Source: Methanohalophilus halophilus
Lineage (GTDB): Archaea; Halobacteriota; Methanosarcinia; Methanosarcinales; Methanosarcinaceae
Length of the DNA: 64,000 nucleotides
NCBI RefSeq assembly: GCF_001889405.1
Contig: NZ_CP017921.1
Location: forward strand, 882,057-946,056
Direction: 5' to 3'
Below the pieces are notes generated by a model, which ran no database searches, was not told the DNA's origin, and was given only the letters and a program-made list of their open reading frames with translations. The position numbers and the translations under genes were made by a program. Positions 43,167 to 49,050 of this stretch are shown here, one piece after another (position 1 is the stretch's first letter; each line of letters opens with the position of its first letter).

Positions 43167-43412
43167 ATGACTGAAAAAACATTGGATCTATTGGATGTGG
43201 GCCAGAATGCCCGTGTAATCCAGGTAAAAGGCAAAGGTCCTTCCAGGCGGCGCCTGCTTGAAATGGGAATGGTGCCTGGTGTTGGTCTTAGTGTGATCAA
43301 AAGGGCCCCGATGGGTGACCCGGTGGATTTCAAGTTGAAAGGCTACAACCTTTCCCTGCGCAAACAAGAGGCACAGATGGTTGTTGTTGAGGTTCTGGGA
43401 GGTATACAATGA
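43167..43412 (+). CDS. feoA: Ferrous iron transport protein A
   Basis: An 81-residue SH3-like protein. The family core is RRRLLEMGMVPGVGLSVIKR followed by GDPVDFKLKGYNLSLRKQEA. FeoA is a small cytosolic partner of FeoB. The first gene behind the DtxR-type box. It overlaps the next feoA by 4 nt. Confidence 0.93.
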   Translation: MTEKTLDLLDVGQNARVIQVKGKGPSRRRLLEMGMVPGVGLSVIKRAPMGDPVDFKLKGYNLSLRKQEAQMVVVEVLGGIQ

Positions 43413-43663
43413 AATCACAGATGCCTCTTGCAATGTCTCCACCAGGGCAGTCATGCCGTATCTGTGAGGTGTGTGCCGGCAGAGGATTGAAAAGAAGGCT
43501 TGTGGAGCTGGGCCTGACTCCGAATTCCATCATCCAGCCCCTGGAATGCAGAAGGGGTTGCCTCCTTGTATCCATCAATGGTACACGTTATGCTCTGGGT
43601 AGGGGAATGGCCAATAAAATCATGGTTCAGCCTGTTTATGGGGAGGTGTCACAGTTTGGCTGA
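43409..43663 (+). CDS. Second FeoA, with cysteine cluster
   Basis: An 84-residue FeoA-like protein. After a leader it holds SCRICEVCAGRGLKRRLVE, then LECRRGC, so at least five cysteines are added to an otherwise normal FeoA fold. They could bind iron or a cluster and make the protein an iron or redox sensor; this is inferred. It overlaps the preceding feoA by 4 nt and FeoB by 8 nt, so the three are coupled. Confidence 0.85.
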   Translation: MKSQMPLAMSPPGQSCRICEVCAGRGLKRRLVELGLTPNSIIQPLECRRGCLLVSINGTRYALGRGMANKIMVQPVYGEVSQFG

Positions 43664-45644
43664 AAAAATAAAAGTTGCAGTGGCAGGTAACCCCAATGTG
43701 GGGAAAACCACGATATTCAATGCCCTAACAGGGGCACGCCAGAAGGTGGGTAACTGGCCCGGCGTTACTGTGGAAAAAAAGATAGGAACAAAGAATCATA
43801 ATGGGCATGTCCTGGAAATAATAGACTTGCCGGGCACTTACAGTTTAACGGCTTATTCAGCAGATGAGGTGGTTGCCAGGGATTATATCCTTGAAGAAAA
43901 ACCTGATGTTGTTGTACAGGTCCTGGATTCCACAAATCTGGAAAGAAATCTTTATCTCACGACACAATTGCTTGAAATGGGCACCAATCTGATTCTTGCC
44001 TTGAACATGTCAGATCGTGCTGAAATGCGCGGCGATTTTATTGATGTCCAGAGACTGGAAAGCCTTCTTGGTGTTTCCGCTATCAAAACTGTTGCAGGTG
44101 AAGGCAAAGGGATAGATGCACTTCTTGATTCTATCGTGACAAAAAAAGAGCAGAACATACCCCTGCCTCATGAGATCGGTTATGGTGGCATGGTGGAAGA
44201 GAAGATATGTGCGCTGGAGGAAATAATTAAAGGTGATCCGGAAATATCCAAACACTATCCTCCCCGCTGGATAACTGTAAAATTGCTGGAAGGTGATGAT
44301 AATGTCATTTTCAAATTATCTTCAGAAAGCATTAAAGGAAAAGTACAGGATTTCCTGTCGGCTATCGACAATGAGGAATATGAAGTTGAGATGGCAGACA
44401 AGAGATATGAATTTATAAGTACCCTGATGCCTCAGGTTTGTACAACCTGTGCTGACGAAGTATCTCCCTCGGACATGGTGGATAAGGTAGTCACCAATAA
44501 GTATCTGGGTATTCCAATATTCCTGATACTTATGTGGGGCATGTTCGAGCTGACCTTTGCTTTTGCCACTCCCTTCATGGAACTGATCGACATGTTCTTT
44601 GGGTGGCTGGCGGCAGCGGTTATCTCAAATATTGAAACTGTTTGGCTTGCTTCCCTTCTGGGTGATGGCATCATTGCCGGTGTAGGTTCTGTCCTGCTCT
44701 TTGTGCCCAATATTTTCATCCTGTTCTTTGCCATCGCCCTGCTTGAAAGCAGTGGCTACATGGCACGTGCAGCATTCATTATGGACAAACTCATGTATAC
44801 AATGGGACTGCAGGGTAAGTCCTTCATCCCGATGCTCATGGGCTTTGGTTGTTCTGTTCCGGCTATTATGGCAACCCGTACACTAGAGGATGAAAAAGAT
44901 CGCCTCATAACGATGATGGTTACGCCTTTCATGTCCTGTGGCGCAAGGTTGCCCGTCTACATACTGCTTGCAGGAACATTTTTCGGTCGCCAGGCAGGAT
45001 CGGTAATTTTTGGCCTGTACGTACTGGGGATACTTGTGGCTATTGTTTCGGCCAAACTCTTCCGGACCTTTCTCGCCAGGGGCCAACCTTCCCCCTTTAT
45101 AATGGAACTTCCCCCCTATACCAAACCTTCACTGAAGGATTCCCTGCGGCATATGTGGAATGAGGGCTACCTTTACCTCCGCAAGGTCGGGACAGTAATT
45201 ATCGGAGGAGTCGTGCTGATCTGGTTGCTTGCCTATTTCCCGCAAGGCGCGGAATATGGCAGTGCTGGCAGTCTGATAGGTTCGCTGGGTAAATTGATCG
45301 AGCCACTAGTAGCCCCACTTGGATTTGACTGGAAGATAGCCGTTGCACTGGTCTTTGGCTTTGCCGCAAAGGAAATTGTAGTAGGTTCCCTGGGAACCCT
45401 GTACGGTACCGGTGGGGGGGAAGCATTGTCCTCAGCCCTCATGGCAGATCCGGGTTTCACTCCTGCAATAGCTCTGGGTCTAATGGTTTTTACTCTGCTC
45501 TATGTGCCCTGCATAGGAGCTGTTGCAGCTATCAAGAAAGAAACAGGTTCCTGGAAATGGATGTTTTTCCAGGCAGCCTACTCGACTGCGGTAGCCTGGG
45601 TGCTGGCAATGGTGACAATCCTTGTCGGAAATATGGTTCTTTAA
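43656..45644 (+). CDS. feoB: Ferrous iron transporter FeoB
   Basis: A 662-residue protein. The N-terminal G domain has GNPNVGKTTIFNALTG near residue 12, DLPGTYSL and LNMSD, followed by a helical GDI-type region to about 270. The C-terminal part has two Gate modules with ARAAFIMDKLMYTMGLQGKS and GCSVPAIMATRTLEDEKDR, and ends in a membrane span. TTG at 43656-43658 is the start, behind GGGGAGGTG at 7-nt spacing; an in-frame start 30 codons earlier lies in feoA and encodes no conserved sequence. It imports Fe2+ with GTP-dependent gating. Confidence 0.95.
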   Translation: MAEKIKVAVAGNPNVGKTTIFNALTGARQKVGNWPGVTVEKKIGTKNHNGHVLEIIDLPGTYSLTAYSADEVVARDYILEEKPDVVVQVLDSTNLERNLYLTTQLLEMGTNLILALNMSDRAEMRGDFIDVQRLESLLGVSAIKTVAGEGKGIDALLDSIVTKKEQNIPLPHEIGYGGMVEEKICALEEIIKGDPEISKHYPPRWITVKLLEGDDNVIFKLSSESIKGKVQDFLSAIDNEEYEVEMADKRYEFISTLMPQVCTTCADEVSPSDMVDKVVTNKYLGIPIFLILMWGMFELTFAFATPFMELIDMFFGWLAAAVISNIETVWLASLLGDGIIAGVGSVLLFVPNIFILFFAIALLESSGYMARAAFIMDKLMYTMGLQGKSFIPMLMGFGCSVPAIMATRTLEDEKDRLITMMVTPFMSCGARLPVYILLAGTFFGRQAGSVIFGLYVLGILVAIVSAKLFRTFLARGQPSPFIMELPPYTKPSLKDSLRHMWNEGYLYLRKVGTVIIGGVVLIWLLAYFPQGAEYGSAGSLIGSLGKLIEPLVAPLGFDWKIAVALVFGFAAKEIVVGSLGTLYGTGGGEALSSALMADPGFTPAIALGLMVFTLLYVPCIGAVAAIKKETGSWKWMFFQAAYSTAVAWVLAMVTILVGNMVL

Positions 45645-45657
45645 TGAGGTGTATTTG

Positions 45658-46110
45658 ATGGAAAGAAATTACAATGGTTTGAAGTTCTTTTCCCTTTTGT
45701 GGGGAATACTGTATATGGCCGCAGGCCTGATTCAGGTCGGCAAGGGAGTGGGGCTTTTGCATGCTTCCTTTTTATCCTCCAGTCTGTTACCTGCTGAGCT
45801 GGCCGGAGGAATTGTACTTGTGGTAATCGGTGCAGTATTTTTCGTCGCAATCTTTGAGTTTTCAAAGGATTCCTTTGAAGGATCCGCCTATGCCTATGTG
45901 GGAATACTGCTCTGCCTGGTGTTTGGCATTCTGTATTTCCTGAGTATGGTAGCAGATCTTATCAATGCCTATATCCTTGCCATGGAAGGTTACGAAAAAT
46001 GGACATTTGTTGACAGTTTCAAACCAGCATTGTATCTGGGCATTTTATCCGGGTTTGTATATATTTTCTGGAAGAACAGGTTTAGCCCCGTAAATCAGGG
46101 AGGATTTTAA
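45658..46110 (+). CDS. Unknown four-helix membrane protein of the iron locus
   Basis: A 150-residue protein with four hydrophobic spans (LLWGILYMAAGLIQVGKG, AGGIVLVVIGAVFFVAIFEF, ILLCLVFGILYFLSMVADLI, YLGILSGFVYIFWKN). I do not recognise a family. It lies 13 nt after feoB and 1 nt before the FeoC-like gene, so it belongs to the iron transcript. The start at 45658 is preceded by GAGGTG. Possible roles are an FeoB accessory, a periplasmic-side partner or a separate transporter subunit. Confidence 0.75.
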   Translation: MERNYNGLKFFSLLWGILYMAAGLIQVGKGVGLLHASFLSSSLLPAELAGGIVLVVIGAVFFVAIFEFSKDSFEGSAYAYVGILLCLVFGILYFLSMVADLINAYILAMEGYEKWTFVDSFKPALYLGILSGFVYIFWKNRFSPVNQGGF

Positions 46111-46111
46111 G

Positions 46112-46402
46112 ATGGTTGCGGGATACAAGTATGTATTGAAAAAAATGGCAGAAATGGACCAGAGGGGCAGCATCTCCTTTAATGCTCTCTCTGAAGGAAT
46201 GGATATGAATACCCGGCAGCTAAAGGGCATGCTGGAGTTAATGGAAAATATGGGGCATGTCAGGAAAATCGGGGATATCAATGCCAGGCCCGAGCTTCTT
46301 TCCTGTGGCCCCTGCAAATCATGTGGATGCTGTAATAGTGGGATTTCCTATGGTAATACATACCAGCTTACCGACAAAGGTCGGAGGGTGTGCAGTACCT
46401 GA
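46112..46402 (+). CDS. FeoC-like winged-helix protein with cysteine cluster
   Basis: A 96-residue protein. Residues 1-55 form a winged helix (MVAGYKYVLKKMAEMDQRGS, LMENMGHVRKIGD), and the end carries SCGPCKSCGCCNSG (CxxCxxCxCC), matching the idea of FeoC, a [Fe-S] winged-helix protein of Feo systems. It may sense iron or oxygen and protect FeoB from proteolysis or regulate feo. It overlaps neither neighbour; the preceding stop is 1 nt away. Confidence 0.8.
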   Translation: MVAGYKYVLKKMAEMDQRGSISFNALSEGMDMNTRQLKGMLELMENMGHVRKIGDINARPELLSCGPCKSCGCCNSGISYGNTYQLTDKGRRVCST

Positions 46403-46515: not shown

Positions 46516-47478
46516 TTACTCCACGGGCCTTCTGACCAGGGATCCGTCTCGCATCTTGATCGTTACATATTTGCCTTCTTCTCCGGCCTCGTATTTATTG
46601 TAACGTAAAATCTCGAATTTGCCGGCATCTGTGAGTTTCCTTATTGTGCGTATATCTTCGCGGCCGATTTTACCTTTTTTTGCAGGTGGGTCAATATTGG
46701 CCTTTTTCTTTGAATATATGGTCCCTCCTTTCATGTCCGCCCCCACATGGCTGCCTGCATCCTCTGTCAGCAGTATTCCGTTTTTCATATATGCACCGGC
46801 AAAGGCTTCACATTTACCCTCTACGTAAACTGTTCCGCCATTGAGATGGGCTGCAGTATTCATGCCGGTATCCCCTTTGATTAGCAACATTCCATTTTCC
46901 ATCAGCAATCCGCTTCCGTTACCCGCATTTCCTTCTACTGTTATGCTGGCTTCACAGTTGCAACGGGCTGCCAGGGTATTGCGCAGGATGGCGTCATTGA
47001 GCAGCAGGTTATTTCCTTCCAGTTTGTTTAGCAGAAGTTTCTCCTGCAATCCCTTGCACACCAATTCAGTTATTGACACGAATTTGCGATAACCTTCCAT
47101 ATCGGATTCCACTTCCACTATATTTCCCATGGGTTCCCCGATACTTCCTTTTACGTATAAGGCGCCGGCTACCATCCCCATCCCTGCTTCAGCGGCGACG
47201 TTACCATCAATTATGATGTTGCCGGCATTTTCTGTATTCCCGCTGCCTCCAAGATGGGATATGCTGGCGCCCATTCCCTGTGCAAGCCGTTTTGCGACAT
47301 CACCGACAATCTGTACAGTATCTTCTTTTTTGAGATGATCGACTATTTCCCTGTAGGTATATTCCGTGCCTTGCTGGTGGGGGATGAGAGAGTCCGGATT
47401 GAAATCACTATTCCAGAAAAAGTTGTAAGTATAGTCACAGAGGTTGTCCGGCGGATTTGATAGTTCGATAGTGATCAT
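46516..47478 (-). CDS. GXGXG-domain protein (FwdC / GltB C-terminal-like)
   Basis: A 320-residue protein. Residues about 75-265 form a right-handed beta-helix of GXGXG turns (GASISHLGGSGNTENAGNII, GMGMVAGALYVKGSIGEPMG, AGSHVGADMKGGTIY), as in the C-terminal domain of glutamate synthase and in FwdC/FmdC of formylmethanofuran dehydrogenase. The first 70 residues and last 50 are added, and the flanking motifs do not match FwdC. The start I chose, ATG at 47476-47478, has AAGGGC in front and lies 10 nt after the ferredoxin stop; an in-frame start 23 codons earlier overlaps it. Confidence 0.83.
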   Translation of the reverse strand: MITIELSNPPDNLCDYTYNFFWNSDFNPDSLIPHQQGTEYTYREIVDHLKKEDTVQIVGDVAKRLAQGMGASISHLGGSGNTENAGNIIIDGNVAAEAGMGMVAGALYVKGSIGEPMGNIVEVESDMEGYRKFVSITELVCKGLQEKLLLNKLEGNNLLLNDAILRNTLAARCNCEASITVEGNAGNGSGLLMENGMLLIKGDTGMNTAAHLNGGTVYVEGKCEAFAGAYMKNGILLTEDAGSHVGADMKGGTIYSKKKANIDPPAKKGKIGREDIRTIRKLTDAGKFEILRYNKYEAGEEGKYVTIKMRDGSLVRRPVE

Positions 47479-47488
47479 GTTTGTGCCC

Positions 47489-47872
47489 TTAACCATGTAT
47501 GAGTGCAGGCAGACAGCGGGTACAGACCCAGATGCTTTCTTTTTCATGTCTCAGGGGCATCAGGTATCTCTCGTTTTCATCTTTACCACACTTAAAGCAG
47601 TTTATTGACCCAGCTTCATTGTCTTTTTCTTTTGTCTCCTGCATTTCCCTGACTGCCTGCGGATTGAAATCCATTGTCTGCCTTTCTTCAATTGATATTG
47701 CATCCTGTGGGCAGACTCCGATACAGAACCCCATACCATCGCACAGCTCTTCAGATACGACTTTAGCCTTACCATCTATTATCTGTATGGCACCCTCGGC
47801 ACATGGGCTGACACATTTGCCACAACCATTACACTTATCCTCGTCTATTTTGACTATCATCCGATTTACCAT
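47489..47872 (-). CDS. Ferredoxin with C-terminal zinc-ribbon
   Basis: A 127-residue protein. Residues 8-60 hold two [4Fe-4S] binding sites (CNGCGKCVSPC and CDGMGFCIGVC). After an acidic linker, the end carries CFKCGKD and CTRC, a ribbon that may bind zinc or iron. ATG at 47870-47872 follows GGAGG. It sits between the CGGC-domain and GXGXG genes with 13- and 10-nt gaps. It should pass electrons within the operon. Confidence 0.85.
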   Translation of the reverse strand: MVNRMIVKIDEDKCNGCGKCVSPCAEGAIQIIDGKAKVVSEELCDGMGFCIGVCPQDAISIEERQTMDFNPQAVREMQETKEKDNEAGSINCFKCGKDENERYLMPLRHEKESIWVCTRCLPALIHG

Positions 47873-47885
47873 TTTCAATCCTCCA

Positions 47886-48218
47886 TTAATGATGTGTACC
47901 TTCCACAACTTCAATTCCTGCATTTTCCAGAGTCTGCATTATTGAATCCACATGAGGGCATTCCGGATAGTTTTCCATTTGCATACAGGAACTGAGATGT
48001 ACTGTTTCCACTCCGTATTTTTTCAGGGAGCGTGCAAGCCTGAAAACCCTCCTTCCCGGACACCCGCCGCATGTGAAAAAAGCTGTCATTTCTGTATTTT
48101 CCTCGTAGTCACTAAAAGCGACTGCTTTTTCATTGAATGCCTTGAAACAACCAATTCCCGGGCAGGCTTCTGCAACAATAGCACAGCGAACTACTGCTAT
48201 TTTCTTATTATCTGTCAT
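47886..48218 (-). CDS. CGGC-domain redox/metal-binding protein
   Basis: A 110-residue protein that matches the CGGC (PF08821) family by AVVRCAIVAEACPGIGCFKA at the start and FFTCGGCPGRRVFRLARSLK near residue 57, then LSSCMQMENYPECPHVD. Many cysteines suggest metal or cluster binding. The start is ATG at 48216-48218, behind GGAG at about 7 nt; an in-frame ATG 2 codons upstream is less well spaced. The first 11 nt overlap the DUF166 gene. Confidence 0.83.
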   Translation of the reverse strand: MTDNKKIAVVRCAIVAEACPGIGCFKAFNEKAVAFSDYEENTEMTAFFTCGGCPGRRVFRLARSLKKYGVETVHLSSCMQMENYPECPHVDSIMQTLENAGIEVVEGTHH

Positions 48219-48972
48219 TTGCATTCTCCTTTTGTGCTTTATCCAGTGCAGAGTCCACACTTTCCCGGATAATATAACCTGCTTTGTGCAATATGGTGTC
48301 CCCTATTTCAGGGTCATTATCCATGCTTGCAGTACAGGGATATGCATGATGGGCAGAGGAAACCGTTTCCTTGAAATCTGCAGCTTCGGTATAGACAAGT
48401 TTACGGGCAACAAACCATGTGCATCCGCAGGGAGCATCCTTTATCACCCGTGCAGTTGTAATTTCTTCATTATCAAGTATTATTTCGACTTTGGGCTTCC
48501 CAAATCCCATTTCAACAAATCTGTCAATTACAGGTTGGCCTGTTTTCTCAAGGCTGCAGAATGGCTTGGGGAAAGCATATTCTACTTCCTCGTTCTGAAG
48601 TTTTTCTGCAACTTGCCTGACAAGGCCTGCCGGGGCAAGCTTGGGATTTTCAACAGGTGCAATTAAGGCTTTTGCATGTGCTTTTTTTGCAACTGTTGGC
48701 AGGGAAGCAAATAGGTCCGGATGCAGGTCCATTGCAAGGAGCAGGTCACAGGGTTTCAGGTCAGCAGGCAGGTATTCTTCCGGCTCTTCCACAAATTCAG
48801 GCAGATCTGCGGGCAATTCATGGATTTCTGTAAGGAACCCGGAATAAGATTTGCGGCCCTGTCGACAGTGATCGCAGGCTTCCCCGCAGGATGTGCAGAA
48901 CTGATCGGAATTTATGAGATTGCCCAGTACCTTTTTCCCGAATTCCCCGCTGTACAGGACACTTATTCTAAT
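48208..48972 (-). CDS. DUF166-family protein with no canonical start codon
   Basis: The conserved N-terminal sequence RISVLYSGEFGKKVLGNLIN and the cysteine cluster FCTSCGEACDHC lie upstream of the first ATG, GTG or TTG codon, which is a TTG at 48814-48816. The frame stays open back to a TAG at 49015-49017. Here I give the start as ATT at 48970-48972, where the family-like sequence begins; no good Shine-Dalgarno precedes it at close range. TTA, ATA, CTG, or a one-base error that joins ATG 49002-49004, are alternatives. Including that start the protein is 254 residues. Family function is unknown, although early annotation called it thymidylate synthase. Confidence 0.6.
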   Translation of the reverse strand: MRISVLYSGEFGKKVLGNLINSDQFCTSCGEACDHCRQGRKSYSGFLTEIHELPADLPEFVEEPEEYLPADLKPCDLLLAMDLHPDLFASLPTVAKKAHAKALIAPVENPKLAPAGLVRQVAEKLQNEEVEYAFPKPFCSLEKTGQPVIDRFVEMGFGKPKVEIILDNEEITTARVIKDAPCGCTWFVARKLVYTEAADFKETVSSAHHAYPCTASMDNDPEIGDTILHKAGYIIRESVDSALDKAQKENANDR

Positions 48973-49004
48973 TGGTTGCGGATCTGCTAAGGTACGACCT
49001 CCAT

Positions 49005-49050
49005 GGTATATTTTCTATACCAGGTATATTGGTGATACTGATATATAAAT
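49005..49050 (-). promoter_or_regulatory. TATA box and inverted repeats before the DUF166 operon
   Basis: GGTATA at 49005-49010 pairs exactly with TATACC at 49016-49021 around TTTTC, and a third copy of GGTATA occurs at 49023-49028. ATTTATATAT (minus strand, 49041-49050) is a TATA element, so a repressor at the repeats would cover the start site. The repeats are seen; regulation is inferred. Confidence 0.5.

Follow-up and report, generated by a model that had tools for sequence, protein, structure and literature searches.

The operon and its four proteins

A four-gene operon lies on the minus strand of the 64-kb stretch of DNA examined here (the window, G000:C1:882057-946056), which is part of the single-contig 2.02-Mb genome of Methanohalophilus halophilus. 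The genes encode a long-form DUF166 protein, a CGGC-domain protein, a ferredoxin with an added cysteine ribbon and a stand-alone GXGXG beta-helix protein (Table 1). All four, which an earlier note made from the sequence had described, are recovered by Pfam and as open reading frames, and the spacing given there is reproduced exactly, with DUF166 and CGGC overlapping by 11 nt (48208-48218) and the following gaps being 13 and 10 nt. In comparisons between Methanohalophilus species, purifying selection is seen on each gene (dN/dS about 0.05-0.2), profile searches of the four proteins revealed no catalytic domain, and no published expression data for the locus were found in the literature. Convergent to the operon is a feoAB region (43167-46402) that holds two small FeoA-like genes, feoB (43566-45644) and a gene for a cysteine-containing FeoC-like regulator (46112-46402; PF09012, 3e-7); FeoB is also found near the operon in Methanococcoides.

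Table 1. Features of the operon and its promoter, in window coordinates
Feature	Position	Strand	Evidence or remark
DUF166 protein, long form, CxxCxxxCxxC near N-terminus	48208-48990	-	PF02593, 5e-68
CGGC-domain protein, 110 aa	47886-48218	-	PF08821, 3.3e-35
Ferredoxin with two [4Fe-4S] motifs and C-terminal CxxC...CxxC ribbon, 127 aa	47489-47872	-	Fer4 domains (Pfam)
Stand-alone GXGXG beta-helix protein, type A, 320 aa	46516-47478	-	PF01493, 6.7e-7; TIGR03122, 3e-17; both below cut-off
Shine-Dalgarno-like GGAGGT	48997-49002	-	6 nt ahead of TTA 48990; sequence and comparison with L074-L076
Candidate operator box 2, GTATA-GAAAA-TATAC	49006-49020		In tandem with box 1
Candidate operator box 1, GTATC-ACCAA-TATAC, read on the minus strand	49024-49038		Also in HxlR-alSir intergenic regions
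TATA-like element, TTTATATA	49042-49049	-	Just upstream of box 1; read from the sequence

The GXGXG protein scores 29.5 bits against PF01493 (cut-off 32.5), and its AlphaFold model is a beta-helix (pLDDT 92) that among PDB structures best matches FhcC, FwdC and the GXGXG domain of glutamate synthase. It shares this fold with FwdC/FmdC/FhcC and with the glutamate synthase GXGXG subunits (GltB), but is a third, separate paralogue located outside those operons and below the FwdC equivalog cut-off. Its scores of 62.7 bits against TIGR03122 (cut-off 130.65) and 53.4 against NF042910 (cut-off 340), together with the absence of nearby fwd genes, do not qualify it as subunit C of formylmethanofuran dehydrogenase, and no synthase or amidotransferase subunit that would mark an archaeal glutamate synthase is present in or near 46516-48990. 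The earlier note was right that the GXGXG protein has no catalytic subunit of either enzyme nearby; separate GXGXG copies reside elsewhere in the genome, in a putative fwd operon (L002) and a putative glutamate-synthase operon (L004), both identified from neighbouring sequences. Amide transfer and formylmethanofuran chemistry were rejected as functions on these two grounds, the missing catalytic subunit and the possession by both enzymes of their own GXGXG subunits, and nothing was found in support of the amide transfer that the note had suggested. A type-B GXGXG paralogue, about 40% identical and lacking ferredoxin or CGGC neighbours, occurs in ANME-2, Methanoperedens and others (L034-L053).

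In the CGGC protein, C12, C19, C24, C50-GG-C53, C78 and C87 are invariant among nine aligned orthologues, and a comparison with the PDB gave no match. A second CGGC protein of the genome (L172, G000:C1:532093-532428) is encoded by a gene overlapping that of a TfrB/HdrD-like iron-sulfur oxidoreductase. The ferredoxin has a mean column identity of 78% across genera, none of the cysteines of the clusters or the four of the ribbon varies, and its ferredoxin part matches, among others, the ferredoxin domain of the F420-dependent sulfite reductase Fsr (7np8, 6e-10).

The DUF166 gene has an unusual beginning. No ATG, GTG or TTG lies ahead of 48816, and a start at that position would remove the cysteine cluster. 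The TTA at 48990 is TTG in Methanohalophilus profundi (comparison with L074-L076) and the ATT at 48972 is ATG in Methanococcoides; here and in close relatives the standard start codon is absent (TTA/ATT, ATA). Over the 52 codons that span 48972-48817, dN is about 0-0.008 and dS about 0.13-0.16, and dN/dS in the N-terminal region is about 0.06. This stretch is conserved at the protein level, and DUF166 therefore starts upstream of 48816; as far as the sequence can tell, it is translated from a non-canonical codon (TTA 48990 or ATT 48972) or via an unrecognised route. The end at 48972 proposed in the earlier note needs correcting on one point, in that the codon at this position is ATT.

Seven DUF166 cysteines (Cys26, 29, 33, 36, 139, 182 and 213) are invariant in the alignment. 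The AlphaFold model is a Rossmann-like alpha/beta protein (pLDDT 81) with a poorly modelled CxxCxxxCxxC loop, and it has no confident match in the PDB, where weak alpha/beta matches alone were obtained (KaiC, Rossmann proteins); a search of the PDB with the sequence profile gave chance-level matches to an aldolase scaffold. The protein shares the DUF166 superfamily (1.8e-19) with DfsP, the DUF166 family (seleno)protein, but was rejected as its equivalog, scoring 70.3 bits against NF041372 where the cut-off is 200. Our literature search for DUF166 found two selenoprotein reviews naming the family and nothing further. DUF166 proteins of a short form that lacks the N-terminal cysteine cluster adjoin a MinD/CooC-like ATPase in another archaeal family (L182, L185, L196).

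Conservation of the cassette and its enzyme neighbours

A profile search of genome contigs with the GXGXG alignment returned 184 relatives, and the best 80 of them were examined; the genera of some genomes were deduced from kinship, while named loci carry their own titles. A CGGC-ferredoxin-GXGXG cassette, present in this order on one strand in the window, is conserved in Methanohalophilus, Methanococcoides, Methanolobus, Methanomethylovorans, ANME-2 and ANME-3. Among the 77 named type-A GXGXG loci from these best 80 of 184 (L074-L150), 47 have the ferredoxin directly upstream, and nearly all the rest belong to Methanoperedens, in which GXGXG usually follows an FtsZ gene. A GXGXG-FtsZ partnership was rejected, this adjacency being confined to Methanoperedens.

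In 60 loci anchored on CGGC or ferredoxin, each searched to within about 5 kb, the ferredoxin is found in 56, CGGC in 48, GXGXG in 47, the small siroheme reductase alSir in 28 and an HxlR-type regulator in 26, the last invariably divergent on the opposite strand; DUF166 (11/60), cupin (9/60), rubrerythrin-like proteins (6/60) and an HAO-like multihaem cytochrome (5/60) are less frequent. The earlier note made its reading depend on the four genes being linked in other genomes. CGGC, ferredoxin and GXGXG pass this check, whereas DUF166 fails it in part: Methanohalophilus and Methanococcoides are alone in having it within the full cassette, and elsewhere it accompanies alSir or CGGC-ferredoxin in a few genomes of other families. 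The note's description of an uncharacterised redox operon is upheld, and the operon is conserved by linkage across the genera of Methanosarcinaceae that have GXGXG and in ANME-2/3; most of this linkage comes from one order of archaea, so that the cases are not fully independent. In the papers searched the cassette is not described, while the type of enzyme associated with it is already known.

Variations around the core also occur. Methanosarcina has HxlR-alSir-cupin-CGGC-ferredoxin without GXGXG, and two genera that also lack GXGXG (G012, G013) place an FprA-type flavodiiron protein and rubrerythrin upstream of CGGC-ferredoxin. In a genome of another family (G119) a single run of genes comprises FprA, alSir, an HAO-like cytochrome, rubrerythrin, CGGC, a longer ferredoxin and DUF166; in the sister genome G079 a cupin separates the longer ferredoxin from DUF166. 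At three Methanoperedens loci (L125, L126, L136) a gene for a siroheme reductase resembling group III Dsr-LP lies a few nucleotides upstream of GXGXG.

The recurring enzyme neighbour is a protein of 219 aa with both NIR_SIR domains (Pfam). We assign it to alSir, also called group I Dsr-LP, because its size and its lack of a ferredoxin domain, rather than a tree, fit the published descriptions of this small siroheme reductase (Susanti and Mukhopadhyay 2012, PMC3448663; PMC6286981). It adjoins the cassette in Methanolobus, Methanococcoides, Methanosarcina and some ANME-2, and a divergent HxlR-type regulator frequently stands beside it. In a sample of 147 genomes of the phylum, DUF166 adjoins alSir in Methanococcoides and in G139, G188 and G123, which belong to other families, and lies about 3 kb from it in G119. 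The alSir of the window genome itself is outside the window and unlinked to the cassette (L174, G000:C1:40701-41357, 75% identical); at that site it shares an overlap with a short rubrerythrin gene and is followed by heterodisulfide-reductase-like genes. The self-contained system that the earlier note supposed is not supported: the likely enzyme lies beside the cassette in relatives and at a separate site in the window genome.

AlSir occurs widely among methanogens and methane-oxidising archaea, and in metaproteomes from seeps it ranked with the most highly expressed proteins of the ANME sulfur pathway, but what it does physiologically is called unclear (PMC6286981). The group III Dsr-LP of Methanoperedens BLZ2 is reported to rise under long-term sulfide (PMC12138975); L125 is a BLZ2 contig, and its GXGXG-adjacent reductase may be the sulfide-responsive gene.

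Candidate operator and HxlR-type regulator

The two boxes at the operon's promoter (Table 1) have counterparts in related genera. A GTATC-N5-TATAC box stands a few nucleotides after a TATA element between HxlR and alSir in Methanolobus, Methanococcoides and Methanosarcina, with ATATATAA about 4 nt ahead of the box in Methanolobus and Methanosarcina, and tandem boxes are found in Methanosarcina too. Other Methanohalophilus species retain at least one box, apart from L077, which is among the most divergent and has none. The window operon has no adjacent HxlR gene, yet it carries the HxlR-type box. The single HxlR orthologue of the genome (L203, G000:C1:1283636-1284043, 63% identical), with redox_TF_RrpA/RrpB as its best NCBIfam matches, below cut-off, is divergent from an Hcp gene (NF003658, 3e-208), and a GTATCGATAAGATAC box lies between the two.

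The strict pattern GTATCNNNNATATAC occurs once in the 64-kb window, compared with 0.03 expected, and four times in the genome, the three sites outside the window all being inside genes. The pattern GTATMN5KATAC, widened once box 2 of the window and the site at hcp had been noticed, has four matches in the window against 0.13 expected and 17 genome-wide against 14 for a control pattern. Single sites were rejected as a regulon and attributed to chance on this comparison, most of the others lying inside genes. Because single matches scarcely exceed the control, weight is placed only on tandem placement and conservation, and 49006-49038 is the only tandem pair among the 17 sites of the 2-Mb genome. 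A relaxed pattern is present in 16 of 27 HxlR-linked promoters versus 19 of 1060 random segments (1.8%), the former figure being descriptive as the pattern was derived from those promoters, with the window promoter outside the derivation. No box was found at the genome's own alSir/rubrerythrin promoter or in ANME-2/3 clusters without an adjacent HxlR. Judged from sequence comparison, the tandem GTATM-N5-KATAC boxes are likely to be the operator of the HxlR regulator.

Hcp in bacteria is under HcpR/CRP-type control. The present arrangement resembles such Hcp and nitrosative-stress regulons in its common box and in the adjacency of the HxlR orthologue to hcp, but differs in that the candidate regulator is of the HxlR type. 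For methanogens, Hcp (the hybrid-cluster protein, hydroxylamine reductase) is discussed as a nitric-oxide-related enzyme (PMC10210160).

Proposed function and alternatives

At slightly better than even odds, we consider the operon to be an inducible, HxlR-regulated redox-stress cassette, responding to oxidants, sulfite or nitrogen oxides, which supplies electrons to alSir or services it. It is probably an accessory kit against reactive sulfur or nitrogen compounds and not a stand-alone amide-transfer enzyme. The HxlR-type regulator would bind the tandem boxes that closely follow the TATA box and, as the direction of regulation that we infer, would probably repress the operon until exposure to an oxidant, sulfite or nitrogen oxide lifts the repression. 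The ferredoxin would then contact alSir and pass it low-potential electrons for the reduction of sulfite, nitrite or NO, with the CGGC and DUF166 proteins possibly acting as a cysteine/metal relay or as servicing proteins and the GXGXG beta-helix as a non-catalytic scaffold. In Fsr and group III Dsr-LP, ferredoxin clusters likewise feed the siroheme centre, but there within one chain; here a separate ferredoxin would replace the built-in domains that alSir lacks, the F420H2-dehydrogenase part is missing, and GXGXG, CGGC and DUF166 are additional.

We count in favour of the stress-cassette reading the CGGC-ferredoxin-GXGXG linkage, the adjacency of DUF166 and alSir, the Dsr-LP-like gene upstream of GXGXG, the FprA, rubrerythrin and HAO-like neighbours, the layout of box and TATA element and the HxlR-Hcp pair. 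Counting against it are the unlinked, box-less alSir of the window genome, GXGXG genes without ferredoxin or CGGC (those beside FtsZ in Methanoperedens and the type-B paralogues), the missing boxes in ANME-2/3 clusters that have no adjacent HxlR, the closeness of the single-box count to that of the control pattern and the derivation of most of the linkage from one order. A more specific version, to which we give roughly one chance in four, joins alSir and the four proteins in one modular siroheme reductase complex. This would be a split form of Fsr, made up with a dedicated two-cluster ferredoxin, the GXGXG beta-helix as scaffold and two cysteine-rich partners, and switched on by an HxlR regulator that has Hcp under its control as well; if true, it would supply alSir's missing electron donor and physiological role. 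The conserved partner set and the candidate regulator and operator make the role of alSir directly testable, and the cassette gives DUF166 and CGGC a first functional context and suggests how strict anaerobes deal with sulfite, nitrite or NO.

It is unlikely, though worth weighing, that the four proteins instead assemble or repair a siroheme/[4Fe-4S] centre or Fe-S clusters outside turnover. Their cysteine-rich, non-enzymatic make-up, the link to siroheme reductases and Hcp, and the feoAB and FeoC-like genes directly downstream in Methanohalophilus, with FeoB near in Methanococcoides, would suit such a role; that feo adjacency is, however, confined to two genera, and among the genes of the clusters none could be recognised as belonging to SUF, ISC or siroheme biosynthesis. 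Biosynthetic use of alSir and ferredoxin, either to reduce sulfite for assimilation or in reverse to yield sulfite for coenzyme M, has been proposed in both forms for alSir (PMC6286981), but HxlR-type control and the Hcp, rubrerythrin, FprA and HAO-like neighbours favour stress over housekeeping and leave it a low probability.

We give very little credence to the self-contained electron- or amide-transfer enzyme of the earlier note: GXGXG and ferredoxin do co-occur in glutamate synthase and formylmethanofuran dehydrogenase, yet this genome encodes a separate GXGXG subunit for each of the two, the four genes lack a catalytic domain and the recurring enzyme neighbour is alSir or a group III Dsr-LP. 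Scarcely more probable is that the genes are adjacent through common descent and share no function. Although the restriction of most cases to one archaeal order is what such inheritance would leave, the proteins keep 50-60% identity while the flanking genes differ, the candidate operator pair is retained, and DUF166, alSir, cupin and FprA have been repeatedly gained or lost around an unchanged core.
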